DNA of 44,152 nucleotides from Nitrospirota bacterium (lineage in GTDB: Bacteria > Nitrospirota > Nitrospiria > Nitrospirales > Nitrospiraceae). Under the pieces are notes generated by a model, which saw only the letters and a program-made list of their open reading frames with translations, did no database searches and had not been told where the DNA came from. Position 1 is the first letter of the stretch. Every line of letters begins with the position of its first letter. Where the stretch lies: contig JACQQM010000070.1 of the NCBI GenBank assembly GCA_016207025.1, positions 1-44,152 of the forward strand, in the 5' to 3' direction. The translations under genes and the position numbers were made by a program. Below, piece by piece: positions 3,594 through 44,152 of the stretch.

Positions 3594-5774
3594 CTAGCGT
3601 TCCTGCCACGAGCGGATACGTCGAGCCGTGATGACCCCAACCACGCGCTCAATTGCTTTCAGGACCCGGTCAAGGTGCACGGTGTCAGTGACTTCGATCA
3701 CAAAGTCCAGCACCGCCTTGCGGTCCTCTCGCGTCGTGATTTCGGCCCGGCTGATGTTCGCGTCGCACGCAGAGATGGCCGACGACACATTGGCCAACAC
3801 TCCCGTTTTGTCCACAGCGAGCACCGAGAGTTTCACGGCATGCGTGCTCTGAGCCGTTGTGTCCCAGTCCACCTCCACCAGCCGATCCTTGTCATAGTCA
3901 AGCGCGTCAAGATTGGGACAGCCCACGGAATGGATCGTGAGGCCTCGCCCGCGGGTGATATAGCCCATAATCCGATCCCCGGGAACTGGATTGCAGCACC
4001 GGGAAAGCTGCATGAGGAGATCGCGGCCCCCTTTGACCTTGACCCCCTTCTCCTCGTGTTTCCCTCCCGCCGGACGGACTGCGGGAACTTCTTCCGGGAC
4101 GCTCGGCCGCCCTTCGCCAGGACGCGGAGGAAGCAATCGGTTGATCACCTGGGCGGTCGATAGATGACCGTAGCCGATCGCCGCAACCATTTCATCCGTC
4201 GTCTCGAAGCCAGACTCACGTGCGACCTGCAGGAGCTTATCCGACTTCAACAACTGGGCGGGCGGCATGTCGTGGCGCCGGAACTCGCGTTCTAACAGGC
4301 GTCGGCCGATCTCGACGCTGCGTTTCTGCTCTTCCACCTTCAGCCAATGCTTGATTTTTGTCTTCGCCCGTGGCGTCCGGACGAATTTCAGCCAGTCTTT
4401 GTGGGGCACCTGCGTGGGTGACGTGAGAATTTCTACCGTATCGCCGCTGGCAAGCTGATGCTTGAGAGGCACGATCTTGCCATTCACCTTCGCGCCGACA
4501 CAATGATTGCCGATCTCCGTGTGAATGGCGTACGCGAAGTCGACGGGGGTTGACCCAAGCGGCATCTCCTTGACCATTCCCTTCGGCGTGAACACGTAGA
4601 CCACATCGTGAAACAAATCCAGCTTGACCGAATCCATGAACTGGCGGTTGTCGGTCAGATCCTGGTTCCACTCCACAAACTGCCGCAGCCAGCTAAACAC
4701 CTTTTTGTCCTTGTCATCAATCTGCCCGCGTTCCTTGTACTTCCAGTGCGCGGCGATGCCGTATTCTGCAACCCGATGCATCTCCTCGGTGCGAATCTGG
4801 AACTCCACGTGTTCGCCCTTGGGCCCCACGACCGTGGTATGGAGCGACTGGTACAGATTCGACTTCGGGATCGCGATGTAATCCTTGAACCGTCCGGGCA
4901 CAGGGCGCCAGAGTGAATGAATGAGGCCCAAGATTCCATAACAGTTCATCTTGGTGTCCGTGATGATGCGGATCGCCGTCAGGTCATACACCTCTTCGAA
5001 CGAAATGGATTGTCGCTCCATCTTCTGATAAACGCCGTAGAGGTGCTTGGGCCGCCCCTGCACCTCGCCCTTGAGGCCCGCCTCAGCCAACGCCTGCTTC
5101 ACGAGCCGGATGACCTCCTCGAGGTACTGCTGACGCTCTTCGTCCCGTTTGGCCACCCGCAATTTCAACGCGGCGAACACGTCCGGCTTCAGGTGTTTGA
5201 GGCACAAGTCCTCCAGCTCGTTCTTCATCCAGCCGATGCCCAGGCGATTAGCAAGCGGCGCATAGATTTCCAGCGTTTCCTGGGCGATCTGCTGTTGCTT
5301 GACCGCATGGAGATGCTCTAACGTCCGCATGTTATGGAGGCGATCGGCGAGCTTGATGAGGACGACCCGGATGTCATCCGCCATCGAGAGCACCATCTTC
5401 CGAAAGTTTTCGGCCTGCTTCTCCTCGTAGTTTCTGAACTGGATCTTTCCGATCTTGGTGACGCCGTCCACGAGACGCGCGATGTCCTTGCCGAACTCCC
5501 GCTCCAACTCCTCCGAGGTCGCGAGAGTGTCTTCCAAGGTGTCGTGCAGCAATCCGGCGACAATGGCGGTCACGTCCGATCGGAGCGAGGTCAGGACGCC
5601 TGCGACGGCCAGTGGATGCCGGAGGTACGGCTCACCCGACTTCCTGGTCTGCCCCTCGTGCGCCTTCGCCGAAAAGGCATAGGCCCGTTGTACCAGATCG
5701 ACATCCGCCTCCGGATTGTAGCTCTGGACCCGCTTCATCAATTGGTCGATGTCGGTAATCGTCTCGTACGGCAT
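3594..5774 (-). CDS. Bifunctional (p)ppGpp synthetase/hydrolase RelA/SpoT family
   Basis: HD domain 'HPLAVAGVLTSLRSDVTAIVAGLLHDTLEDT', synthetase 'YDLTAIRIITDTKMNCYGILGLIHSLWRPVPGRFKDYIAIPKSNLYQSLHTTV', TGS and ACT domains. Confidence 0.96.
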   Translation of the reverse strand: MPYETITDIDQLMKRVQSYNPEADVDLVQRAYAFSAKAHEGQTRKSGEPYLRHPLAVAGVLTSLRSDVTAIVAGLLHDTLEDTLATSEELEREFGKDIARLVDGVTKIGKIQFRNYEEKQAENFRKMVLSMADDIRVVLIKLADRLHNMRTLEHLHAVKQQQIAQETLEIYAPLANRLGIGWMKNELEDLCLKHLKPDVFAALKLRVAKRDEERQQYLEEVIRLVKQALAEAGLKGEVQGRPKHLYGVYQKMERQSISFEEVYDLTAIRIITDTKMNCYGILGLIHSLWRPVPGRFKDYIAIPKSNLYQSLHTTVVGPKGEHVEFQIRTEEMHRVAEYGIAAHWKYKERGQIDDKDKKVFSWLRQFVEWNQDLTDNRQFMDSVKLDLFHDVVYVFTPKGMVKEMPLGSTPVDFAYAIHTEIGNHCVGAKVNGKIVPLKHQLASGDTVEILTSPTQVPHKDWLKFVRTPRAKTKIKHWLKVEEQKRSVEIGRRLLEREFRRHDMPPAQLLKSDKLLQVARESGFETTDEMVAAIGYGHLSTAQVINRLLPPRPGEGRPSVPEEVPAVRPAGGKHEEKGVKVKGGRDLLMQLSRCCNPVPGDRIMGYITRGRGLTIHSVGCPNLDALDYDKDRLVEVDWDTTAQSTHAVKLSVLAVDKTGVLANVSSAISACDANISRAEITTREDRKAVLDFVIEVTDTVHLDRVLKAIERVVGVITARRIRSWQER

Positions 5775-5782
5775 ACGGCGTC

Positions 5783-7486
5783 TTACAAATCAGGACTCGC
5801 CTTCACATCTCTGATGCGCAATTGGATCCGATCAAGCCCGTTCCAACGATTCAACTCGGGCACGAACGCCACATCCAAGGTCCGCTCGATCGAAAGCCCT
5901 CGATCGGCCAAGGAGCCCATGCGAAATCCGATCCCATCGAAGGGGGGTGAATCCCCATGCCGGACCGACAACTTCAGATGACCATCGCCCACAACCCGCG
6001 TGGCTACGATGGACAAATTTCTGGCCGCGAGCGTCGGTTCAGGATTCCCTGCGCCAAATGGGCGTAGCATAGCCAGCTCGCGGACAAGCTGCTGGTTGAC
6101 GTCTCGCAAGCTGACCTCCGCATCCACATGAAGGAGCGGAACCCGGGGCCGATCCCCCGCCCACGCCGACGCGATGCCCGCGAATCTGTCCCGGAACTCC
6201 GGGAGACGGGACTCAAGGACCGTGAGGCCGGCTGCACAGGGATGCCCCCCAAACCCCTCCAAGAGATCGCGGCAGGCGAAGAGGGCTTGATAGAGATCAA
6301 AGCCCGGCACGCTCCGGGCCGAGCCCTTTCCGACCCCATGCTCGTTCACGGCCACGACCACGGCAGGCCGATGATACCGATCCACTAACCTGGCAGCCAC
6401 GATCCCGACCACACCGAGGTGCCAGTGTCGCGCTCCGAGCACCAGTGCCGGGGGCGCCTCCCTGTTTCCCGCCAGCGCCAGCGCTTCCGTCGTCGTCTTC
6501 TCTTCGATTCGCTGCCGCTCCCGGTTCAATTGCTCAAGCTGCTCGGCGAGATCCCTGGCCTCCAAATCTAACTCGGTGGTGAGCAGCCGCACGCCAGTCT
6601 CGGCATGCGCCACTCGTCCAGCGGCATTAATCCGGGGGGCCAACCGGAAGGCCACGGTGTCGGTCGTGCACTCGCGGTCAACGCCCGCCACCTGTTTGAG
6701 CGCGCGCAAGCCGCAACGAGCGCCTCGCGACATGAGCGCGAGCCCCTCTCGGACGAAATACCGATTCTCGTCCTGCAACGGCACCACGTCCGCAACTGTG
6801 GCCAAGGCCACTAAGTCCAGCAGCGATTCCGGATCGAGCGAATCGGCACCATACTTTTCCGCATAAGCCTGCACCACCTTGAAGGCCAGCCCACCGGAAC
6901 AGAGCCCGTCGAACGGGTACACCGAATCCGCCCGATGGGGGTTCAGAACCGCCAATGCCGGGGGCAAACGGGCTTCGGCCTGGTGATGGTCCGTGATAAT
7001 GACGTCAAGCCCGAGCCTGCCGGCCACTTCGACTTCGCGATGGGCCGTCGTCCCGCAATCCGACGTCACCAGCAACATCACCCCTTCCTGTCGGAGTCGA
7101 CGAAGCGCCTGTTCGTTGAGCCCATACCCTTCCCGCACCCGGTGCGGAATATAGGCGGTCACGTCGGCTCCGAGACTGCGGAAAAACGTCAGAAAGAGGC
7201 TGGTCGCCGAAATCCCGTCTACATCATAATCGCCGTAAAAACAGACCCGCTCGCCAGCAGCGACCGCCCGGTGGAGGCGATCGACCGCCTTTTCCATATC
7301 GGGAATCAAGAAAGGATCGTGCAAGGCGACCTGTTTCGGCGACATCCAGCAGCGCGCCTGTTCCATGGACACGACCCCGCGCGCGAGCAAAACTGATGCC
7401 GTAATCGGGGAAATCGAGAGCGCATGGGCGAGCATTCTTTGCTCTTCATGGTTCACTGCATGAACAACCCATTGTTTCTCGACCAT
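5783..7486 (-). CDS. recJ: Single-stranded-DNA-specific exonuclease RecJ
   Basis: 'VCFYGDYDVDGISATSLF', 'VIITDHHQAEARLPPALAVLNPHR', DHHA1 'GGHPCAAGLTV'. Confidence 0.95.
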   Translation of the reverse strand: MVEKQWVVHAVNHEEQRMLAHALSISPITASVLLARGVVSMEQARCWMSPKQVALHDPFLIPDMEKAVDRLHRAVAAGERVCFYGDYDVDGISATSLFLTFFRSLGADVTAYIPHRVREGYGLNEQALRRLRQEGVMLLVTSDCGTTAHREVEVAGRLGLDVIITDHHQAEARLPPALAVLNPHRADSVYPFDGLCSGGLAFKVVQAYAEKYGADSLDPESLLDLVALATVADVVPLQDENRYFVREGLALMSRGARCGLRALKQVAGVDRECTTDTVAFRLAPRINAAGRVAHAETGVRLLTTELDLEARDLAEQLEQLNRERQRIEEKTTTEALALAGNREAPPALVLGARHWHLGVVGIVAARLVDRYHRPAVVVAVNEHGVGKGSARSVPGFDLYQALFACRDLLEGFGGHPCAAGLTVLESRLPEFRDRFAGIASAWAGDRPRVPLLHVDAEVSLRDVNQQLVRELAMLRPFGAGNPEPTLAARNLSIVATRVVGDGHLKLSVRHGDSPPFDGIGFRMGSLADRGLSIERTLDVAFVPELNRWNGLDRIQLRIRDVKASPDL

Positions 7487-10782: not shown

Positions 10783-12018
10783 TTATTGCAGCGGGATATT
10801 CACGACCCGCTGCGCGATGGGGATGGGCTGGAAGACCGGATCTTGCGAGCCCTTTGAGGATTCGGCTTCAATTCTCTGGAGAAACGGCGTCGGTCCCGCG
10901 ACCGATGCATAGCTCAGGAACGCTTCGACGTCGAAGGATCGGGTATCCTTGGGCGTCGGAAAGGTGAAGGTCTCCAACCTGGTTTCTTCTGGCTTGAGCA
11001 CGGTGTCTTCCAAGACTTTGACCGCTTTGAAGTCGAAAACCGTTTTCTCCCCTTTCGTATCTGCATAGACTCGCCCATAGACCCGCTGCTCACCAAACAC
11101 CTTTTTGAGATTCTTGCCTTTGATCGTGAGATCCAGCACCACTCTGGCCCAGCCCGGATGCGTCGTGGGAAGGTTGTGCGGAACCAAACTCTGGACCTTC
11201 ACCGTCACCTTCGTCTGGTTGCCCTTCACCTCGGTGTCCACGTCCAGCCTGGCCGCCTCCTGTCTAAGCTTGCCGATTCTGCCGGGGAACGTGTGGTTGG
11301 CCACCTTTCGCTTGTTCTCGCCATTGGCCGACTCCCCGACCTGTTCGGGCATGTGGCAGGTCTGACATTCTCTGCCGGATTTCACCGCCTTGCTGTTTTC
11401 CCATTCCCCCAGCAGATCATTGCTTTTGCCTAAAATGGCCGCGGCCGGTACCGCCAGATGACAGTTTAAACAGAGCTCGGACTTCCTGTACAGGTCCAAG
11501 TCCATGGATTCATGCGCCTTATTTTGCACAAAGTCTTTGTACGGCCCGAAGAGCGTTCTGCCCGGCTCATATTTGGGGACCGGCATATAGCTGGTCCGAT
11601 CCACCTTCTTGATCAAATGGCACTGGGCACATCCTACCCCGTCGATCGCGGGATCTCCTGACTGCACCTGCTCAACGAACGTCTGGATCTGATCCTGGAA
11701 TAGGTTGATGTGAGGAGCATGGCATCGTAAGCAGAGGGCCTTGTCCTTCCCTCCGGAGAATGCGAGGTATTCCTCCAGCGAGACTCGGAACGCGGGGGAA
11801 TGAATAGATCGGGAAAGTGGAGAGGCTTCCCATTCTTCGAATACCCGCTCATGGCACCGCTTGCACTTGTTCGAACTGGGGAAAACCTTTTCCAGAGAGC
11901 CCTTCGGTTTCACGTTATCCTGGGCGAGGCCTAGGTGAACAAGGCCCCATGCAGCAAGGAGACCCAGCGCCAGCAAGGCAGCCGCTCCCCCCTTCCTCTG
12001 CCAGTTTAGTCGCGCCAC
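10783..12018 (-). CDS. Pentaheme c-type cytochrome, exported, with C-terminal beta-rich region
   Basis: Five CxxCH: CKRCH, CLRCH, CAQCH, CLNCH, CQTCH; N-terminal signal sequence. Confidence 0.9.
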   Translation of the reverse strand: MARLNWQRKGGAAALLALGLLAAWGLVHLGLAQDNVKPKGSLEKVFPSSNKCKRCHERVFEEWEASPLSRSIHSPAFRVSLEEYLAFSGGKDKALCLRCHAPHINLFQDQIQTFVEQVQSGDPAIDGVGCAQCHLIKKVDRTSYMPVPKYEPGRTLFGPYKDFVQNKAHESMDLDLYRKSELCLNCHLAVPAAAILGKSNDLLGEWENSKAVKSGRECQTCHMPEQVGESANGENKRKVANHTFPGRIGKLRQEAARLDVDTEVKGNQTKVTVKVQSLVPHNLPTTHPGWARVVLDLTIKGKNLKKVFGEQRVYGRVYADTKGEKTVFDFKAVKVLEDTVLKPEETRLETFTFPTPKDTRSFDVEAFLSYASVAGPTPFLQRIEAESSKGSQDPVFQPIPIAQRVVNIPLQ

Positions 12019-12082
12019 CGCTCCAAAGTCCCTCCCGTGGTCGCGAGAGGCGGCCAGAACACAAGCCCCTCGGTGTCGTGAT

Positions 12083-13417
12083 TCACAATGATTTCGTCCG
12101 GAACGTCAGCACACGCGGCTGAGCGTATTCCTGAATCAGCTTCACCGCGGCAGCGCGCTCCTGCTCGGTGGACAGCGTCGTCAAATATCCCTCCTTGAGC
12201 TTGGGTTCCGGCTCCGGGATAAGCGCATAGGTCAGGAGCGCTTCGATCGTCGCCGGTGTTGCTCCTGCCGGCATCGAAAGGGCGAAAGGAATGCGCCTTG
12301 TGGTGCCCCCCCTCACCAGTGGTTCCGGAATAGGCCCTCGAAGAATCTGGTCGAAGGGAAGGCCGAACTGTTTGAGTTCGGTGGCGAGGACCTGCCCTTG
12401 TGCATCCTTTGCCATGATCGTGACAAAGAACTGCTTCAGCACCGGGTCTCCATCCGGAAAACTATGCGGGAGGCTGCCCGTTCGGACCAGCACCGTGCCG
12501 TTTACCGCAGTCGGGGATTTGTTGACTTCGATATCGACCCGCGGCATCCATTCAGCCTGCAGGTTCCGATTTTTAATCAAGAGGCCTGGAATCACGACTC
12601 CCCGAAACCAGTGACGTCCGATTGAACGCGTCAGGGCCCCCCGCTTGGAGGTCGAACTTCCGGTCGAAGGTTCCATGTGGCAGTCCTGGCAGACCGTGCC
12701 CTGGAGAATCTCTCCGGGCAGGTCACGGCGCGTGACATCCTTGACCTTGTCAAAGTGGCACGACGTGCAGTAGTTGGCGCCGCGGTACAGATCGGATTGG
12801 CTGGCAGGGTGAACCAGATTTTCTTCGGGATCGGCGTAGGGCCCATACATCACTTTGCCTGGGTTGAGCTTGTACGTCGGAGGCGGGGCTTCCTTGTCAG
12901 ACACCGCATTGATCAGATGGCAAGACGCGCACCCGATCCCTTCAATCTCCACCTTCCCGGACAAGACCTGACGATTGATCTTGTCCACGTGTTGTGGGAA
13001 CACCGTCGCGGCCGGCACGTGGCACGACAAGCACTGTATCCGTTGCTGGGGAGTCGGATTCGTCTGAAGCCAGAGGCCCAGAACGATCTTGAAGACCGGC
13101 GATTCTAATGACGTGCCGTGAAGCAGGGCGGCATCGACGCGGCCGAAGGTTTTGAGATCCGGGGTCTGCTCACGCATCCCCTTCCATTCTTCATAGTGCC
13201 GGTCATGGCATTGCTTGCAGTCTTCTGATCGGATGAAAATCTTTTCAATTTCTTCGACCCATTGGCTCGACGCTTGGCCTTCTACCTTCTGGGCGACCGC
13301 TCGGCCATGGTGCACGGCGTTCACCCCGACCAAGAGCGCAAAAAGAGCCGCAACTGCCAGTATTTTCAACCTCCCCATGCCATGCTCCCAGAAGGCCAGC
13401 CTAGGATTCCGGATCAA
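12083..13417 (-). CDS. Pentaheme c-type cytochrome, exported (paralogue of the neighbour)
   Basis: Five CxxCH: CKQCH, CLSCH, CASCH, CTSCH, CQDCH; signal sequence MGRLKILAVAALFALLVGVNAVHHG. Same heme order and spacing style as 10783-12018. Confidence 0.9.
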   Translation of the reverse strand: MIRNPRLAFWEHGMGRLKILAVAALFALLVGVNAVHHGRAVAQKVEGQASSQWVEEIEKIFIRSEDCKQCHDRHYEEWKGMREQTPDLKTFGRVDAALLHGTSLESPVFKIVLGLWLQTNPTPQQRIQCLSCHVPAATVFPQHVDKINRQVLSGKVEIEGIGCASCHLINAVSDKEAPPPTYKLNPGKVMYGPYADPEENLVHPASQSDLYRGANYCTSCHFDKVKDVTRRDLPGEILQGTVCQDCHMEPSTGSSTSKRGALTRSIGRHWFRGVVIPGLLIKNRNLQAEWMPRVDIEVNKSPTAVNGTVLVRTGSLPHSFPDGDPVLKQFFVTIMAKDAQGQVLATELKQFGLPFDQILRGPIPEPLVRGGTTRRIPFALSMPAGATPATIEALLTYALIPEPEPKLKEGYLTTLSTEQERAAAVKLIQEYAQPRVLTFRTKSL

Positions 13418-13965: not shown

Positions 13966-14805
13966 TCACAGCCTTACAACCGGATCAATTAAAAGCTGGT
14001 ACCACGGAGCCACCGCTTTCTGGCCGTTGCGCTCCTTGTTCTCGCCATTCCAGACTGCGAAGGCAATGGACTGGAGCCGGCCCGGTTCCAGCCTGGCTTC
14101 ATTTTCTGGGTCCGTGCTAGTCAGCGGCCTTCGCATGATCACGCGCCAAACCCCATCCTTCCAGGTCGCCTTCCCTTGAATCCTCCCTTGAGCCTGTTTG
14201 CTGGTCAGTGTGCTGAAGCCCCCACCGACCAAATCCTCCACGGACGAGGCGCGCCGGGGGATAACCTCGAATCGGCGGACCTCTCCACTCTCGCCTTTTT
14301 TCTCCATGGCTCTGGCCGCTCGTCGGTCAATGTCGCTTTGCCAGTCGGCTTTCCAGTGCCAAATGTTGATGTAGTGGTCCAGTTGGCCCATGCAGAAAAA
14401 GGCAGGGGCATCTCCTAGTGGGAGTCCGATTGCGATGCCGTCTCGGAACGTGCCGGGCGTCAGCCGGTCATTCTTGGTATTGTCCTGCCACTCGAGCAGG
14501 AACGCGATTTCCTTGCCATTATGGACCGAGCTCACGCTCAACGCCCGCGCCGTCGGCTCGGGCCACACGGGTCGCGTGATCACCTGCCCGCTCAGCGGCA
14601 GTATCATGGGTGGGACTTTTGCCCAGGCGGGGTCGTCTGGCGCGGAGGGGACGTCGCCATCGATCAGATGGGACCGGATGATCATTCCCTCAGAGCTGAC
14701 AACCGGAATGCCCAACCAGCCAAGAACTAACGCGCCGAACAGTAAGCCCGATATCAGAGGGATAATGGAATGAGACCGCACACCCAACCGCTCCAATGGC
14801 GCCAT
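13966..14805 (-). CDS. Ethylbenzene-dehydrogenase-gamma-like heme b-binding protein (NxrC-like)
   Basis: 'MILPLSGQVITRPVWPEP...GKEIAFLLEWQDNT...FRDGIAIGLPLGDAPAFFCMGQLDHYINIWHWKADWQ' and 'AFAVWNGENKERNGQKAVAPWYQL' align by eye with 20730-21683. Confidence 0.85.
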   Translation of the reverse strand: MAPLERLGVRSHSIIPLISGLLFGALVLGWLGIPVVSSEGMIIRSHLIDGDVPSAPDDPAWAKVPPMILPLSGQVITRPVWPEPTARALSVSSVHNGKEIAFLLEWQDNTKNDRLTPGTFRDGIAIGLPLGDAPAFFCMGQLDHYINIWHWKADWQSDIDRRAARAMEKKGESGEVRRFEVIPRRASSVEDLVGGGFSTLTSKQAQGRIQGKATWKDGVWRVIMRRPLTSTDPENEARLEPGRLQSIAFAVWNGENKERNGQKAVAPWYQLLIDPVVRL

Positions 14806-20729: not shown

Positions 20730-21683
20730 TTAGGGCAGCTTCAACGTAAACCAGGTTGAAATGCCCTTCATCCCATTTCGTTCGACGTTGGCCCCATCCC
20801 ACACTGCAAACGCCACAGGTACCGACATTCCAGGCTTGAACTGAACATCGTTCGGGTCGCTGGTGGTCAACGTGCGCTTGACCACGATCCGCCACGTCGG
20901 TCCGACGCAGCAGCCTCCCTTGATCGAGCCGGCCGGCTCCCACAGGCCGTTCCCGATCACGTCCTGATGCGACTGCGTGGTCAGCGTGCTGAAGCCGTTA
21001 GCGTTGAGGTCTTCAACCGAGCTCACGCGCAGGGTCGGATCCGACAGGATGTTCCCGGACCAAATGCCAGGATTAAAAGGCCCCAGGCTCCGGCCGATTC
21101 TGTCAGGATACGTCACGCCGCCGGCAGGCTCTTCAAAGTAATAATCCCAGAAGATGCCCGGGTACTGATCGTCGACATCCCAAATGCCAGCACTGTCTTT
21201 CCCAATATCCTTCTGCCATTCCGCATTCCAACGCCAAATGTTGACCGTTCCGCCGGACTGCCCCATGCACTGGAACGGCGGCGCACCGGATGTGCTGACC
21301 GGGAACTGGAGTGCGGCCTGATCGCGAAAGTCCTGCGGCCCAATGGTGGTGTTGTTCAACGTCTGATCAGGCCAATCCAACCGGAAACCAAGTTCTTTCC
21401 CGTTCGTGACAGCCTTCACGAACACGGATTTCACCGAGATATTTGGATGCATCGGCGTGGTGATCGTTTGCCCGCTCAGCGGCACGACCACGCCCGGCAC
21501 ACCCTCCCAGATGGGATTCGCCCCGTCCATCGGGATCGGCCCCTTGATTGCCTTGACCGGGATGGTCACCGGTTGGCTGACGGCAAGAGGCACCTGCCCG
21601 ATCGTCAACATGAAGCCGACGACCAGCACAGAGAGAAGCATGCCAAACACCAACCCCTTGTTTCGTGTCTGCACCACTCTCAT
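20730..21683 (-). CDS. Ethylbenzene-dehydrogenase-gamma-like heme b protein, candidate nitrite oxidoreductase gamma subunit (NxrC-like)
   Basis: Signal sequence from MRVVQTRNKGLVFGMLLSVLVVGFML; 'VVVPLSGQTITTPMHPNISVKSVFVKAVTNGKELGFRLDWPDQT...FQCMGQSGGTVNIWRWNAEWQKDIG', 'VAFAVWDGANVERNGMKGISTWFTLKLP'. RBS GAGGAGGG upstream. Confidence 0.85.
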   Translation of the reverse strand: MRVVQTRNKGLVFGMLLSVLVVGFMLTIGQVPLAVSQPVTIPVKAIKGPIPMDGANPIWEGVPGVVVPLSGQTITTPMHPNISVKSVFVKAVTNGKELGFRLDWPDQTLNNTTIGPQDFRDQAALQFPVSTSGAPPFQCMGQSGGTVNIWRWNAEWQKDIGKDSAGIWDVDDQYPGIFWDYYFEEPAGGVTYPDRIGRSLGPFNPGIWSGNILSDPTLRVSSVEDLNANGFSTLTTQSHQDVIGNGLWEPAGSIKGGCCVGPTWRIVVKRTLTTSDPNDVQFKPGMSVPVAFAVWDGANVERNGMKGISTWFTLKLP

Positions 21684-21797
21684 ATGAATATGCCCTCCTC
21701 TTAAGTAAGGATTAAGTGCTGCTCGCATCACCGTCGACTATCGATCAATTCCTGCAGCCACTGCAGATGCAGATAAAATTCCGGGCGCGTCCTCCCG

Positions 21798-37707: not shown

Positions 37708-38346
37708 TCAGGCCTCATCACCGTGATTCGCAGGCCGCCCGGCAAGCAGTTTCCGCGCGAATTCCAGGTCGGCGAGCGTATTCACGTTCAGAAAAGACAG
37801 AAATTGAGGATCCACCGCTCGCAGCTCGTCCTCCGACACCAGCCTGACTGAGAGTCCCGGAGCTTGACAGAGGTCCTGGACTTTCAAATTGTGAGCCTTG
37901 GCCATCCGTTCGAGGTGGGGCAGGCAGCCTTTGGCGTAAACGGCATGCATGGGTTGGAGGCCGATAGACAGTTGCGCCATCACCACGTCAGAATGCCGGT
38001 CCAGCCCGGCCATCCACTCGATCGTTGTGGGGTTAAGAAACGGCATGTCGCAGGCTGCCGCGAAAATTCTGGGATGAGTCGCGTACGCCAGGCCGGTATA
38101 CAGCCCTCCCAGTGTCGCACAATCGGGGATCAGATCGGTTACCACCCGATGGCGCAGACCGGCCAACTGGGGAGTCGGCTCGGCGACAACCACGATAAGT
38201 TCAGGAAACAGCGACTCTAAGGCCGAGACCGCCCGGTCCAGCAAGGTGCGGCCGCCCAGTTCGAGGAACCGCTTGTCGCGCCCCATCCGGCGGCTCTTCC
38301 CGCCGGCCAGCAATACCCCCGTCATGCCCGTCGTCACGGTCTTCAT
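37708..38346 (-). CDS. mobA: Molybdenum cofactor guanylyltransferase MobA
   Basis: 'MTGVLLAGGKSRRMGRDKRFLELGGRTLLDRAV', 'ACDMPFLNPTTIEWM'; start at MKTVTTG, because the ORF-track start lies inside a terminator. Confidence 0.9.
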   Translation of the reverse strand: MKTVTTGMTGVLLAGGKSRRMGRDKRFLELGGRTLLDRAVSALESLFPELIVVVAEPTPQLAGLRHRVVTDLIPDCATLGGLYTGLAYATHPRIFAAACDMPFLNPTTIEWMAGLDRHSDVVMAQLSIGLQPMHAVYAKGCLPHLERMAKAHNLKVQDLCQAPGLSVRLVSEDELRAVDPQFLSFLNVNTLADLEFARKLLAGRPANHGDEA

Positions 38347-38374
38347 CGCCTTTGCTCGAACGCGTTGCTCAGAT

Positions 38375-38407
38375 AAAAAAAGGGGGTGGGCCACCCCCAC
38401 CCCCTTT
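38375..38407 (-). terminator. Intrinsic terminator after the oxidase-associated cytochrome genes
   Basis: Minus strand AAAGGGGGTGG...CCACCCCCTTTTTTT. Confidence 0.85.
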
Positions 38408-38432: not shown

Positions 38433-40205
38433 TTAAATCTTGCCCTTCTTTTTATTCTTTCGCCGAGTCAGCACCCACCCTTCCAAGATCACAACGCCGA
38501 CTGCGATCAAGGTCGGATAGATGTACGTTTCCTTCGGAATGGGTGGCTCCAGGATGGTGTAGTAGAACGCCGAGACCGCGTTTTTACGACCGACGTCGCC
38601 GTTATGGCCATCCCACGCAAAGAAGACGGTCGGGATGTACTTCCCCGCCTCGAAGTACGTGTCTTCGTCGTAATCTCCCTTCCGGGGCCGCTGGATGATC
38701 AGCGTCCACAGGCCGTCTTTCCATTCGGCCTTGAGGAGCTTCATCTTCTCCTCGAAGTCATCACGCTCTTCAAAGTCCTGATCCCAGCCGGTCCCGGTAA
38801 ACGCCTTCAGGGAACCATCGGCCTCCCATTTCATGATATCCACGGGATACTTCTGGTCGCCCCAGAAAAAGCGTGGCTTCTCGGGTGGCGGGAGCTCCTG
38901 CCACTTGACCGGGAACTCGATGGCAAACGCGTCGTTGTAAATGGTGTACTTGTTCTGGTTGGCTGCAATGGAGTCGGGCTCTCCCGTCTTCGGAGGCTGC
39001 TCCTTGATCCCGTAATCCTCGAGGTTGACCTCGGTCGGCTGGAACGGCAGTTTCCCCTCCGCTACGCTCTTCGACCGATCCTCCCACTGAAACAGAAAGG
39101 CGATTTTTTTATCGTTGTAAATCGACTTCACCCAGACATCGTCGATACGGTTGACGAAGTTCCGTGGCTTGTGCGTGATCTGCCCGCCGAAGAGCACGAT
39201 GCGACGCTCGCGCTTCTGCCACAGCTCATTCTCCGGATCGTCAGGGATCTCCCCTTCAATGGGGCCCGACCGGATCACAAAGTTGATTTTCGGCTTGTCG
39301 GTTAACGGATCAATCGCGAGCGGATCACCATTCGGACCCCGCTCGCAGAGCGACTGCACGAAGTTCGCGATGTGCCACCGCTCCTCGATCGTGGTGTTAT
39401 CCGCAAAGGACGGCATGGGTGTGCCGTTGACCCCGGTGGAGAACGTTCGGAAAATGTTCTTCACATCGTACGGATCCTGGCGGCTCCCCCGGAAGTTCCA
39501 GCACTTGTGCCAGCTCGCTGGCTGGATCGGGAAGCCCCAGTCGTCTTTCAGGTTGAACGCATTCCCGTCTCCCCGTCCATTCACCCCGTGGCACTCGATG
39601 CACTTCTTGTCCACGACCAGTTGGGCGCCCTTCTCAAGGCTTTCCTTCGAGGGCGAGATCGGCTTGATGTTGTCCAACTGGAGAATTGTGAATGTTTCGG
39701 TCTCCTTGTCGTCGAACTTCCGATCCTTCACCAGTTGCGTCGTCACAAACGCGATGACCTGACGGCGTTGGTCCTCCGTGAGGATCCCCTCCCACGACGG
39801 CATGGCCGAGCCCGGGAGCCCATGCGTCACCGTCTGGAACAGGTCCAATTGCGGAAGCGGCAACTCCCCGCTCGCCGTGTGCCGAATCTTAAAGGTCCCC
39901 TGGTTGAAATTCCTTGGCCTCGGCCAGAGTCGGTCAGCGGACGGGCCGTCCCCCGCCCCGTCCACCCCGTGGCACCAGACGCACTTGGTAAAATAGACTC
40001 GCTTGCCGGCCTCAATATCCTCCGCCTTGGGCATCGGCGGCAGATCGGACTTCTTAAATCCCTCAGGGACTCCGCTCCCGCCGCCCTCCTCGGCATAGGT
40101 CCAGACCGCGGCACTGCCGGAGATCATGGCAATCCCTATGGCGGCGACCAGAAGCAGAAGCCGTACGCTTTTAAACCGAAGGTCCTTCATAGTGTACCCC
40201 TTCAC
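38433..40205 (-). CDS. Diheme cytochrome c fused to an ethylbenzene-dehydrogenase-gamma/NxrC-like heme b domain, C-terminal TM anchor
   Basis: CVWCH and CIECH domains; then 'IVLFGGQITHKPRNFVNRIDDVWVKSIYNDKKIAFLFQWEDRS' ... 'PTVFFAWDGHNGDVGRKNAVSAFYYTILEPP'; C-terminal hydrophobic span plus Lys/Arg tail. Confidence 0.87.
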   Translation of the reverse strand: MKGYTMKDLRFKSVRLLLLVAAIGIAMISGSAAVWTYAEEGGGSGVPEGFKKSDLPPMPKAEDIEAGKRVYFTKCVWCHGVDGAGDGPSADRLWPRPRNFNQGTFKIRHTASGELPLPQLDLFQTVTHGLPGSAMPSWEGILTEDQRRQVIAFVTTQLVKDRKFDDKETETFTILQLDNIKPISPSKESLEKGAQLVVDKKCIECHGVNGRGDGNAFNLKDDWGFPIQPASWHKCWNFRGSRQDPYDVKNIFRTFSTGVNGTPMPSFADNTTIEERWHIANFVQSLCERGPNGDPLAIDPLTDKPKINFVIRSGPIEGEIPDDPENELWQKRERRIVLFGGQITHKPRNFVNRIDDVWVKSIYNDKKIAFLFQWEDRSKSVAEGKLPFQPTEVNLEDYGIKEQPPKTGEPDSIAANQNKYTIYNDAFAIEFPVKWQELPPPEKPRFFWGDQKYPVDIMKWEADGSLKAFTGTGWDQDFEERDDFEEKMKLLKAEWKDGLWTLIIQRPRKGDYDEDTYFEAGKYIPTVFFAWDGHNGDVGRKNAVSAFYYTILEPPIPKETYIYPTLIAVGVVILEGWVLTRRKNKKKGKI

Positions 40206-40227: not shown

Positions 40228-41181
40228 TTAATCCCAGGTCCTCGGATAATAGCCGGTGTGCCAGTATTCGAACAGGACCACTTTCCAGATTTCGTCGGTC
40301 GTGAGATGCTGCTCCCAGGGTGGCATCACGGACGCCCATGGGAACGACTCACGCGGCAGACCGATCCCGCCCTTCGCGACCCGCCAGAAGATGAACGTCT
40401 CCTGCAACTGGGCGATGGTCCCGGGGTCCGTGAAATTAGCCGGAATCGGGTTAAAGGCGAACGCGTGCAGCCCTCTGCCGTTGAGATTATCCCCGTGACA
40501 GAAATGGCAATTCTGGAAGAAGACCTCGCCGCCCTCTCTGACATACTTCAAGTAGCCTTCCGCCTTGGGATCCCAGGGATTGGCATCGGGTTTCAGAAGC
40601 CGCCCCATGCTCTGCTCGGTGATGAGTCTGTTGGTATACTCTTGGTCGTATTTCCCTTCAGCATTCACCCGGTACGGATTCGCTGCGGTCTGGAGCACGA
40701 AGGTCTTCCCGTGCACTTTCGTGCTGGCCGGCGGAGCCGGATGCACCGTCCTTAACTCAATCGGCTCGTCCAGACTGGGAAGGAAGGAGGTGTACGAAAA
40801 CCCCCAGAGGATCACCGGAAGCGCAATCAGGTAGAAGGTCCTGAGCGCTTTGTGGAACGGCGTCACGGCATCCAGCACATTGAGGATCGGCTGCTTGAAC
40901 TTCTTCCAATCCTCCTCGTTGCTGGACATCCACATGAAGACGGCGACCAATGACACCGTGCCGTACATCGCGCGCACGCTGAAGGGGATCGGCGGATAGA
41001 TCCGGTACTTCAGGTAGAGGAGGATGAAGACCCAGAACAGGATCCCCTGCCAAAAACGCGGAATGGCCATCCCGCTCTTTGTGAGCAAATAGCTCATGAG
41101 GGCAAACACGCCCACGCAGAAGGCCAGCTCGAACAGCATCTGCATCGGCATATAGCCTTCGACTAATTTAAGCCATGTCAT
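40228..41181 (-). CDS. Membrane-anchored monoheme cytochrome c
   Basis: N-terminal TM helices, single CHFCH site, 'MPPWEQHLTTDEIWKVVLFEY'. Confidence 0.87.
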   Translation of the reverse strand: MTWLKLVEGYMPMQMLFELAFCVGVFALMSYLLTKSGMAIPRFWQGILFWVFILLYLKYRIYPPIPFSVRAMYGTVSLVAVFMWMSSNEEDWKKFKQPILNVLDAVTPFHKALRTFYLIALPVILWGFSYTSFLPSLDEPIELRTVHPAPPASTKVHGKTFVLQTAANPYRVNAEGKYDQEYTNRLITEQSMGRLLKPDANPWDPKAEGYLKYVREGGEVFFQNCHFCHGDNLNGRGLHAFAFNPIPANFTDPGTIAQLQETFIFWRVAKGGIGLPRESFPWASVMPPWEQHLTTDEIWKVVLFEYWHTGYYPRTWD

Positions 41182-41235: not shown

Positions 41236-42543
41236 TCAGATCTTCGGGGGTGCTTTCCCCTCCTCAAGCTGAGAGAGGTAATCCACGATCTTGTTGAGAG
41301 CGCCCGCGCTCAGCTTTTGTCCGAACACCTTCGGCATCACGTTATCCGGGAAAGGCTTGACCACGTAGGTGCCCGGGGAGATGACCGACTCCGTGATGTA
41401 CTCGCGGACCGTTTTCGCGCCGCCCTTGTAAGCTTGGTCCTTCAGACGAGTCGGCGCATTGGTCTTCTCGACCAACTTGGGACCCACCGTGCCCATTGCC
41501 CCCGGAATACCGGGAATGGTATGGCAGACCACACACTGGGCCTTTGCAAAAATCTGGTCCACCGGTTCCGAGCCGTCCGCCAACAGTCCGCCGCCGCCCG
41601 CTGCCGGCTTATCTTCCTGCGGCTTGGGCCGATCAGCCTCCGGAATAAACTTCTCGTAGGCCTTGATGATCTCCTCGTAGGGAGGCGCCTCTTTCCCCTC
41701 ACGAATGTACAGCCAGGTATCCACCGCCGCAAGTTCTCCTAGCGTGAGCGAAATAGGCGGCTTATGGATCGAGGGCATCGGGCTTTCCTTGTCATTGGTG
41801 CCCTTCACACCGAAGCCCGCCACCACATAGCAACTCGGACAGGCATGAGACTCGGAAATATATTCCTGCCCACTCTCCGCGGTCCCAGCTCCCGGGAAGG
41901 ATTCCTTCTGAACGGTATCTCGCTCTCCAGGTTTGCCCTTATGGTACCGGGGATCCTCGAGTTGCTTCTTGGCCCGATCCGGGATACCAAAGAGGTTAGG
42001 TGCCCGTTCGCTCAGGAACCCCTCATTGAATCCATGACAGAGAGGACATTGTCCCTTGCCGATGGCACCCTGAACCTTGCTTTGCCCGATGCCTCCGAAG
42101 ATGATCTTCTCCCCTTCGTCCGCCAATTGCTGGGCCGACATGCTCCCGAAGTCCAATTTGACCTCGGGGGGCGGAAACCCGCCTTCTACCTGAGGCAGCC
42201 AGTTCCCATAGCCCGAGAGCGCTGCCGCTACAAGGAACATGGTGCCGCCAATCTTGAACAGTGCGCTGACCTTGTAGAAGTACAAGGCCATCATGAACGA
42301 GAGGGCGGTGATCATGGCGAGGGAAACCGGCAGGAGACGCGATTCGCCGAAGAAGTTGATCTTGTAATTGGCGATCGCAATGAATGCCATGACGGCAGCG
42401 AGCATTCCGATGAAAGTCTTGAAACTCGCCCGCCGCTTCTTCTCGGAGTCCTTAATGGCCACCTGAAAATAAACGATCAAGCCGGCCAGAAGAGCCAGTA
42501 CCGGCCAGCTCAAACTAAACGCCGTCGCTAGTAACTCCGCCAC
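41236..42543 (-). CDS. Membrane-anchored c-type cytochrome with two CxxCH sites
   Basis: CPLCH and CVVCH sites, plus CPSCY in a related context; N-terminal TM segments. Confidence 0.87.
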   Translation of the reverse strand: MAELLATAFSLSWPVLALLAGLIVYFQVAIKDSEKKRRASFKTFIGMLAAVMAFIAIANYKINFFGESRLLPVSLAMITALSFMMALYFYKVSALFKIGGTMFLVAAALSGYGNWLPQVEGGFPPPEVKLDFGSMSAQQLADEGEKIIFGGIGQSKVQGAIGKGQCPLCHGFNEGFLSERAPNLFGIPDRAKKQLEDPRYHKGKPGERDTVQKESFPGAGTAESGQEYISESHACPSCYVVAGFGVKGTNDKESPMPSIHKPPISLTLGELAAVDTWLYIREGKEAPPYEEIIKAYEKFIPEADRPKPQEDKPAAGGGGLLADGSEPVDQIFAKAQCVVCHTIPGIPGAMGTVGPKLVEKTNAPTRLKDQAYKGGAKTVREYITESVISPGTYVVKPFPDNVMPKVFGQKLSAGALNKIVDYLSQLEEGKAPPKI

Positions 42544-42627: not shown

Positions 42628-44152
42628 CTACGCAGGCTCTGGCACCCTTCCGGGGACCGCCACCTTCGCCTCCACCGGCGCCTTCTTCGCGCCCAGCGTC
42701 CCGAGCCAGAAGACGAACAGGATGGTCAGCCAGAAGAACAGCACGTTGAACGAAATCATATTTGCCGCGAACCCGGTCGTGTGGGTATAGGCCCACGGGG
42801 AGTTGTCCCGCATGATCTCGTTCACGTGCCAGAACAGGCGGACCGAGGAGCGGATGTACCCCATCAACCCCATCATCCAGGTAAAGGCCGTCGCCAGCAT
42901 GATCAGCGCGTATTGCGACCGGACCGAAATCTTCCCCCACTCAATCGGCCCGCTCAGCTTCGCCCCCTTCAGCATCACGAGGTTCAGGGCCGTCATGAAG
43001 AACAAGCAGGAGAGCGTTGACGCCACTTGCGGCACCGACAGTCCCACTCGGACGTTCGCCGGGATGTAATAGCCGTAAATGGCCAGCCAGATGATGTTCA
43101 CGTAGGCCAACGCGAAGAAACACCCCATGAAGATATTCCCGAACTTGGCCCACTTCACCGTCGGCACCTTGTTCCCCCGCTGATACCAGATGAAGGTCAG
43201 CACGGTCGTGGTAATAATGACGTTGATGCCGCCGTTCTTGGCCGACATCACGCCATAGTTGCCCAGTACGGGATGCTGCTGGCCGCCCATCGCCTTCAAC
43301 TCGGCCGGCGTCATCACCATGGTGTGCGGCGTAATGAAGATCAGGAAGCCGACCACCAGCACGAACACCATGTACTTGATGTAGCGCTGATACTTTTCGG
43401 CGCCCCTCATCCGCCCTAACGCCTGCCACAGGTAGTAGTTAGAGCTCAGGAAGAGGATACCGATCATGGTGGCTTGGATGATGAACAGCCAGGCCAGCAG
43501 CCCGCCCATCAGGGTAATCCCCATCTGCTGCCGGTAGGCATAGACTTCCCGCATGAGCCAGTAGCCGGCGAACGGCAGCGGGATCAGGAACGCCACCCCG
43601 ATCGCCATCGCGATATAGCCCATCCAGTCGTAATGGGCCCGCTCCTCATCGGTCTTGGCGGCCAGGAATCGATAGGCCGCGTACGCTGCGACCACGCCAC
43701 CGCCGAAGGCCATATTGCCGAGGAGCCGGTGGACATTGAGCGGATTCCACAGCGCGGTATGGATCACGTGCCAGATGTTCCCTAGAAAGCGGCCCTGCTC
43801 ATCCACGCCGGCCGGCGACATCATGAATCCGATCCAGGAGTTCGCCAGGAACATCAAGACTGTGCCGATCACGTTCAGAACGACCGACATGCTTACGTGC
43901 AACCACTTGAGCAGCCCCTCCTTCATCTTGTCCCATCCATAGTAGTAGATATAGATGGTGCCGCTCTCCGCCACGAACAGCAGCGCATAGATGTGCATCA
44001 CCGGGCGGAAAATGCTGGAGAGATAGCCGAAAAACGCGGGGTAGAGCGTCAGGAACGTGAAGATCAAGATCCCGCCCAGAATGGCGGTCAACGAGTAGGC
44101 GGTCAGGCTGATCTTGATGAAGTCGTAGGCGAGCTGATCATACTTCTTGGCC
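42628..44152 (-). CDS. Cytochrome bd-like oxidase subunit, 5' end truncated by the window
   Basis: Multi-TM protein, 'WHVIHTALWNPLNVHRLLGNMAFGGGVVAAYAAYRFLA', 'FLIPLPFAGYWLMREVYAYRQQMG'. Frame stays open past the 44091 TTG to the window edge (AKKYDQLAYDFIKISLTAYSLTAILGG). Confidence 0.85.
   Translation of the reverse strand, partial: AKKYDQLAYDFIKISLTAYSLTAILGGILIFTFLTLYPAFFGYLSSIFRPVMHIYALLFVAESGTIYIYYYGWDKMKEGLLKWLHVSMSVVLNVIGTVLMFLANSWIGFMMSPAGVDEQGRFLGNIWHVIHTALWNPLNVHRLLGNMAFGGGVVAAYAAYRFLAAKTDEERAHYDWMGYIAMAIGVAFLIPLPFAGYWLMREVYAYRQQMGITLMGGLLAWLFIIQATMIGILFLSSNYYLWQALGRMRGAEKYQRYIKYMVFVLVVGFLIFITPHTMVMTPAELKAMGGQQHPVLGNYGVMSAKNGGINVIITTTVLTFIWYQRGNKVPTVKWAKFGNIFMGCFFALAYVNIIWLAIYGYYIPANVRVGLSVPQVASTLSCLFFMTALNLVMLKGAKLSGPIEWGKISVRSQYALIMLATAFTWMMGLMGYIRSSVRLFWHVNEIMRDNSPWAYTHTTGFAANMISFNVLFFWLTILFVFWLGTLGAKKAPVEAKVAVPGRVPEPA

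Follow-up and report, generated by a model that had tools for sequence, protein, structure and literature searches.

A published candidate for a place on the route that carries electrons from NXR to O2 or to the quinone pool in Nitrospira is a protein that joins two cytochrome c domains to a domain of the NXR-C type. A gene for such a protein lies on the window analysed here, a contig of 44,152 nucleotides from a member of the Nitrospiraceae (JACQQM010000070.1, assembly GCA_016207025.1). A first-pass annotation, made from the letters of the DNA, read it as a chain that would hard-wire three hemes, plausibly between a periplasmic molybdoenzyme such as NXR and the oxidase. The locus therefore raises two questions: how many hemes does this protein hold, and is NXR the enzyme it serves? 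Our answer amounts to a correction to a known, uncharacterised protein: it probably carries two hemes rather than three, and the module to which it belongs is not specific to NXR.

The gene is uninterrupted on the minus strand. It was first listed as 38433-40205, starting at a GTG (40205) that we replaced by the ATG at 40190, which has AAGGGG upstream; with this as the true start, the gene runs from 38433 to 40190 and encodes 585 residues (Table 1). Residues 5-33 or so are hydrophobic, which fits a signal peptide (hydropathy). Much of the first-pass architecture was confirmed. Two cytochrome c domains in one chain are recovered by Pfam (Cytochrom_C, 7e-22; Cytochrome_CBB3, 6e-18), with CxxCH motifs kept throughout the orthologs, and both hydropathy and the predicted structure place a membrane helix at the C-terminus. 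The refuting test set beforehand concerned the C-terminal half, and this half does resemble the heme domain of EBDH: EB_dh (PF09459) exceeds its cut-off (3.7e-11), the profile for the heme b subunit of type II DMSO reductases (TIGR03477) matches at a level below its own (2.5e-19), and an AlphaFold2 model built from 32 orthologs, of middling confidence (mean pLDDT 68, pTM 0.68), retrieves EBDH-gamma (2ivf_C, E 6.4e-11) and NXR-C (7b04_C, E 1.2e-10) in Foldseek, both with probability 1.00. For the N-terminal half, Foldseek retrieves 6h5l_B (E about 1e-10, probability 1.00), which is also the closest PDB entry (E 1e-44): this is Kustc0457, a diheme protein about 36% identical to that half. Kustc0457 stands alone, as the partner of a reducing HAO-like enzyme, and has neither the EB_dh domain nor the membrane helix of the fusion. 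A search of 60 relatives found orthologs of the whole fusion, at 57-90% identity, in the majority, and with the conserved gene order this makes the conservation of the architecture far greater than chance.

Table 1. Features of the fusion locus and related loci. Positions are those of the window unless a genome (G), contig (C) or locus (L) of our set is named.
Feature	Position	Strand	Basis or remark
alt_NxrC_2 ortholog: signal peptide, two cytochrome c domains, EB_dh-like domain, C-terminal transmembrane helix	38433..40190	-	585 aa
Cytochrome c domain 1	39744..40019	-	Pfam
CxxCH motif 1 (C70-H74), axial Met130	39969..39983	-	kept in 81/81
Cytochrome c domain 2	39348..39635	-	Pfam
CxxCH motif 2 (C197-H201), axial Met259	39588..39602	-	kept in 81/81
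EB_dh-like domain (EBDH-gamma / NXR-C fold)	38559..39182	-	profiles and fold match
W443, site of heme-b axial Met (NXR-C Met155)	38862..38864	-	alignment; Met155 from PMC8387239
K536-N537; N537 aligns with heme-b axial Lys (NXR-C Lys305)	38580..38585	-	K536 invariant, one residue off
C-terminal transmembrane helix	38457..38528	-	hydropathy 555-575; AlphaFold helix 559-583
MobA-like NTP transferase, next gene downstream in Nitrospirales	37708..38400	-	
Monoheme cytochrome c of the module, membrane-bound	40228..41181	-	
Diheme cytochrome c, membrane-bound, related to anammox Kustd1711 (7zs0)	41236..42543	-	
Cytochrome bd-like protein (bd-like_3)	42628..44151	-	Pfam PF01654 5.6e-17; 5' end lost at contig end
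Canonical NxrC, internal control on the window's contig	13966..14805	-	intact Met/Lys heme-b ligands
Second NxrC-type EB_dh protein	20730..21731	-	with Met/Lys
Two multiheme cytochromes c and two-component pair near NxrC	10783-12018, 12083-13417, 25949-30567		
Extra bd-like_3 upstream of nxrA	L194 6203-8122 (G032); G057:C5:651706; G258:C1:346855		
Extra bd-like_3 upstream of nxrA, continued	G279:C1:2951238; G282:C13:32706; G289:C25:4565		
bd-like_4, second bd-like gene	G000:C130:3488-5311; L035:16722-18662		
alt_NxrC_1 of the complex III/IV cluster	L192 14848-15684; L197 14504-15376		His at Met position, Lys kept
Two further diheme-EB_dh fusions of the window's genome	L021 (G000:C12) 5073-6767, 11407-13005	-	
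Diheme domain in longer open frames	G012:C1:1963989-1964663; G002:C3:100185-100871		

The fusion is already known: it is the published alt_NxrC_2, of which the window protein is an ordinary ortholog. The alt_NxrC_2 of N. moscoviensis (NITMOv2_3640) is described as a diheme c protein of 66.8 kDa with one signal peptide and one transmembrane helix; its gene clusters with those of bd-like_3 and two cytochromes c, and the protein is proposed either to anchor NXR or to take part in reverse electron flow (PMC6606698); the idea of an anchor or wire for NXR is thus already in print (PMC6606698; PMC3578206). This protein and that of N. defluvii (L113 in our set) share the EB_dh domain and the neighbours of the window protein, and nothing important differs. 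In Nitrospina gracilis (alt_NxrC) and Kuenenia, homologs likewise combine diheme c with a heme-b-type domain and adjoin a bd-like oxidase and mono- and diheme cytochromes, as the window fusion does, but those of Kuenenia lie inside the nxr cluster, unlike the window fusion (PMC3578206).

The number of hemes was addressed through their ligands, counted by alignment in 81 sequences (80 named fusion orthologs and the window protein). All eight heme-c ligands (C70, C73, H74 and M130; C197, C200, H201 and M259) are invariant in the 81, and the presence of two His/Met heme c sites makes electron transfer by the fusion likely. The heme b site behaves otherwise. The heme b of Kuenenia NXR-C has Met155 and Lys305 as its axial ligands, an arrangement shared with EBDH (PMC8387239). 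NXR-C and EBDH gamma have the fold of the fusion's C-terminal domain, but they are molybdoenzyme subunits devoid of heme c domains, whereas the fusion has two, and they bind heme b by a Met and a Lys of which the fusion has neither at its position. The axial Met is replaced by Phe (55 sequences), Trp (20) or His (6), with Met in 0/81; the axial Lys by Met (70), Leu (4), Ser (3), Thr (3) or Asn (1), with Lys in 0/81. In the NxrC of the window itself, Met155 and Lys305 fall on 'MG' and 'NGQK' when counted along the PDB alignments, and both residues are kept in 30/30 canonical NxrC orthologs, all from the window's family. Since the window protein has Trp and Asn at the two ligand positions, it is best read as a two-heme protein, its heme-b domain being probably degenerate, and the three hemes in one chain of the first-pass annotation find no support in this comparison. 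The argument depends on aligning distant EB_dh domains and rests on local motifs, profiles and the fold match; no gap falls at the Lys site when the fusion is aligned by profile with 7b04_C or 2ivf_C. The available text of the published accounts of alt_NxrC_2 makes no mention of this ligand loss.

Could the EB_dh domain still bind heme b through another set of ligands, Lys536 and some other residue? Judged from the same alignments, this is possible, although we consider it rather improbable. Lys536 is invariant in 81/81 and stands one residue before the aligned Lys position, so it may be a displaced ligand; and His occupies the Met position not only in the six orthologs mentioned but also in the forms of the NXR-negative families f4, f7, f10 and f12, so heme b may persist in some lineages. 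However, the Met position swaps freely between Phe, Trp and His, unlike a ligand, and Lys536 itself gives way to Arg in f7 and in a single genome of f4. Distant fusions encoded beside Rieske/cytochrome b genes often retain the Met. In a separate protein, alt_NxrC_1 of the complex III/IV cluster, the His at the Met position is accompanied by a retained Lys, and it may therefore hold a His/Lys heme b.

As for the enzyme served, the gene order bd-like, diheme c, monoheme c, fusion is found in 63/63 named loci with enough upstream sequence. The N-terminal half of the bd-like protein matches CydA (profile). The diheme partner matches Kustd1711 (7zs0, E 3e-8), whose hemes lie near +350 mV and which binds calcium (PMC11791136); in that relative, the calcium ion is 6.9 Å from each heme iron (PMC11791136). 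On the downstream side, a MobA-like gene (molybdenum cofactor nucleotidylation) adjoins the fusion in Nitrospirales, the NXR-negative family f4 included, and was not found in the loci examined from Nitrospiria outside that order. A complex of similar make-up is known from the same class: TO_1 of the Troglogloeales/Manganitrophaceae comprises a bd-like protein and a periplasmic cytochrome b and is widespread in Nitrospirota (PMC9040806). By this likeness, TO_1 is probably the fusion module.

The occurrence of the module relative to NXR was studied in 246 Nitrospirota genomes, mostly MAGs; matches in the scan of public genomes were from Nitrospirota only, the anammox and Nitrospina homologs lying outside the sample. 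NXR was scored with a real NxrA protein, TIGR03479 being too loose to mark it. At 1e-20, NxrA had no match in any of 13 Nitrospiria genomes from outside the order Nitrospirales (93-99% completeness), and yet 12 of these 13 carry the fusion clade, with the same gene order in the loci examined; the thirteenth (G200) has only the other fusion type. The fusion is thus not restricted to genomes with NxrA/NxrB. Absence in one genome means little, because nxrAB are repeats that often break assemblies, and the window's own genome has NxrC without nxrA; the absence of NxrA from the class-level set is consistent across its 13 genomes. An apparent loss of the fusion in one genome (G060) was rejected as a claim, the NxrC-bearing contig ending at 16.4 kb. 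Within Nitrospirales, the NXR-negative family f4 fits UBA2166, a family published as lacking NXR; it has the fusion in three of four genomes and NxrC in none (at 1e-25). In the gene tree, read with more distant fusions as outgroup, the rows with NXR fall into a single supported clade; its sister group is f4, and it lies within the NXR-negative rows of the class-level set. The simplest reading of this topology is that the module descended vertically and would be older than NXR in Nitrospiria. The fusion is not dedicated to NXR. The class-level genomes carry other molybdopterin enzymes, so the partner there may be a different molybdoenzyme. Of the proposed wire between NXR and an oxidase, the gene order upholds the link to the bd-like oxidase, while a wire dedicated to NXR is not supported, given the module's presence in NXR-negative Nitrospiria and the gene tree.

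We therefore favour, with some confidence, the view that the fusion carries two hemes and serves, in high-potential chemolithotrophs, as a membrane subunit of a bd-like complex; NXR would be one of the sources from which its electrons could come. The bd-like protein, the diheme and monoheme cytochromes c and the alt_NxrC_2 fusion would form a four-gene membrane module, with the fusion at the periplasmic side of the inner membrane. The two c hemes of the fusion, both of high potential, would connect a periplasmic donor with the bd-like core, electrons being relayed by way of the module's two membrane-bound cytochromes c. The EB_dh domain, formerly a heme-b domain, would be retained mainly for docking or structure. 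In nitrite oxidizers, the electrons could come from NXR, directly or through a soluble cytochrome c, and in NXR-negative relatives from another high-potential donor; the core would serve either O2 reduction or reverse electron flow. We hold more tentatively, and with doubt about as strong as belief, that in the alt_NxrC_2 clade the EB_dh domain lost its heme b to become a docking module, and that an old bd-like complex predating nitrite oxidation was later co-opted. If the complex did predate nitrite oxidation in Nitrospiria, the name 'alternative NXR gamma subunit' is misleading. The missing heme-b ligands and a module older than NXR would shift the test of this published candidate from an NXR anchor to a subunit of a bd-like complex, which can be checked in the NXR-negative relatives.

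Rather than pass electrons to O2, the module could drive high-potential electrons from cytochrome c towards quinone at the expense of the proton motive force, as has been proposed (PMC6606698), and we give this a minor but real chance. The bd-like proteins of the cluster have no canonical quinol loop and yet occur in anaerobic anammox bacteria (PMC3578206), and the module is common to organisms that combine donors above +400 mV with CO2 fixation by the rTCA cycle (PMC9040806). However, no quinone site was identified in the module, and the bd-like family otherwise consists of O2 reductases, as the profile match to CydA recalls.

The reading as a subunit of a bd-like complex leaves room for NXR, with which the fusion may have a role in nitrite oxidizers. 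NxrC is encoded about 24 kb from the fusion, on the window's contig and in many relatives. An NXR link is further favoured by the anammox homologs, because these sit in the nxr cluster (PMC3578206). In six genomes, an extra copy of bd-like_3 (81-85% identical) lies directly upstream of nxrA, within about 0.4-0.5 kb and on the same strand. A second bd-like gene, bd-like_4 (63-78% identity), was present in 8/8 of the Nitrospirales genomes examined in f1 and f3, families that bear NXR, and in 0/17 NXR-negative genomes; bd-like_4 and NxrC, and not the fusion, are therefore the genes of the neighbourhood that best track NXR. Near the window's NxrC, two multiheme cytochromes c and a two-component pair make up a region that resembles NITMOv2_3614-3631, an NXR-diagnostic cluster (PMC12342949).

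The nearby NxrC and the extra bd-like_3 copies, together with the NXR-C fold of the C-terminal domain, the adjoining bd-like oxidase and the published proposal (PMC6606698), are what speaks for a chain of three hemes, two of type c and one of type b, that would exist for electron transfer from NXR to that oxidase alone. We consider such a chain quite unlikely: the heme-b Met is absent and the Lys displaced in all 81 sequences, the module does without NXR in 12 of the 13 class-level genomes, and alt_nxrC_2 transcripts are 2.5- to 4-fold below those of the NXR subunits (PMC6606698). Equally improbable is an anchor or alternative gamma subunit whose EB_dh domain would dock NxrB while its helix tethers NXR, with a heme b of its own or not, as might be suggested by the shared fold and by a mass close to that of a 62 kDa band seen in purified nitrite-oxidizing particles (PMC6606698), since the fusion occurs without NXR and stays in family f4, where the canonical NxrC genes are missing.

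The combination of diheme and EB_dh domains also occurs elsewhere in the window's genome. Two further fusions on another contig have their own bd-like and cytochrome c genes, lie beside Rieske/cytochrome b and occupy the spot that the heme-c-free alt_NxrC_1 holds in N. defluvii. Fusions of this type were found in no other genome among 61 relatives; misbinning of the contig was considered and rejected, its Rieske and cytochrome b proteins being 61% and 84% identical to those of Nitrospiraceae. Finally, several Nitrospira genomes encode the diheme domain within longer open frames (about 960-980 residues), apparently another multi-domain cytochrome.
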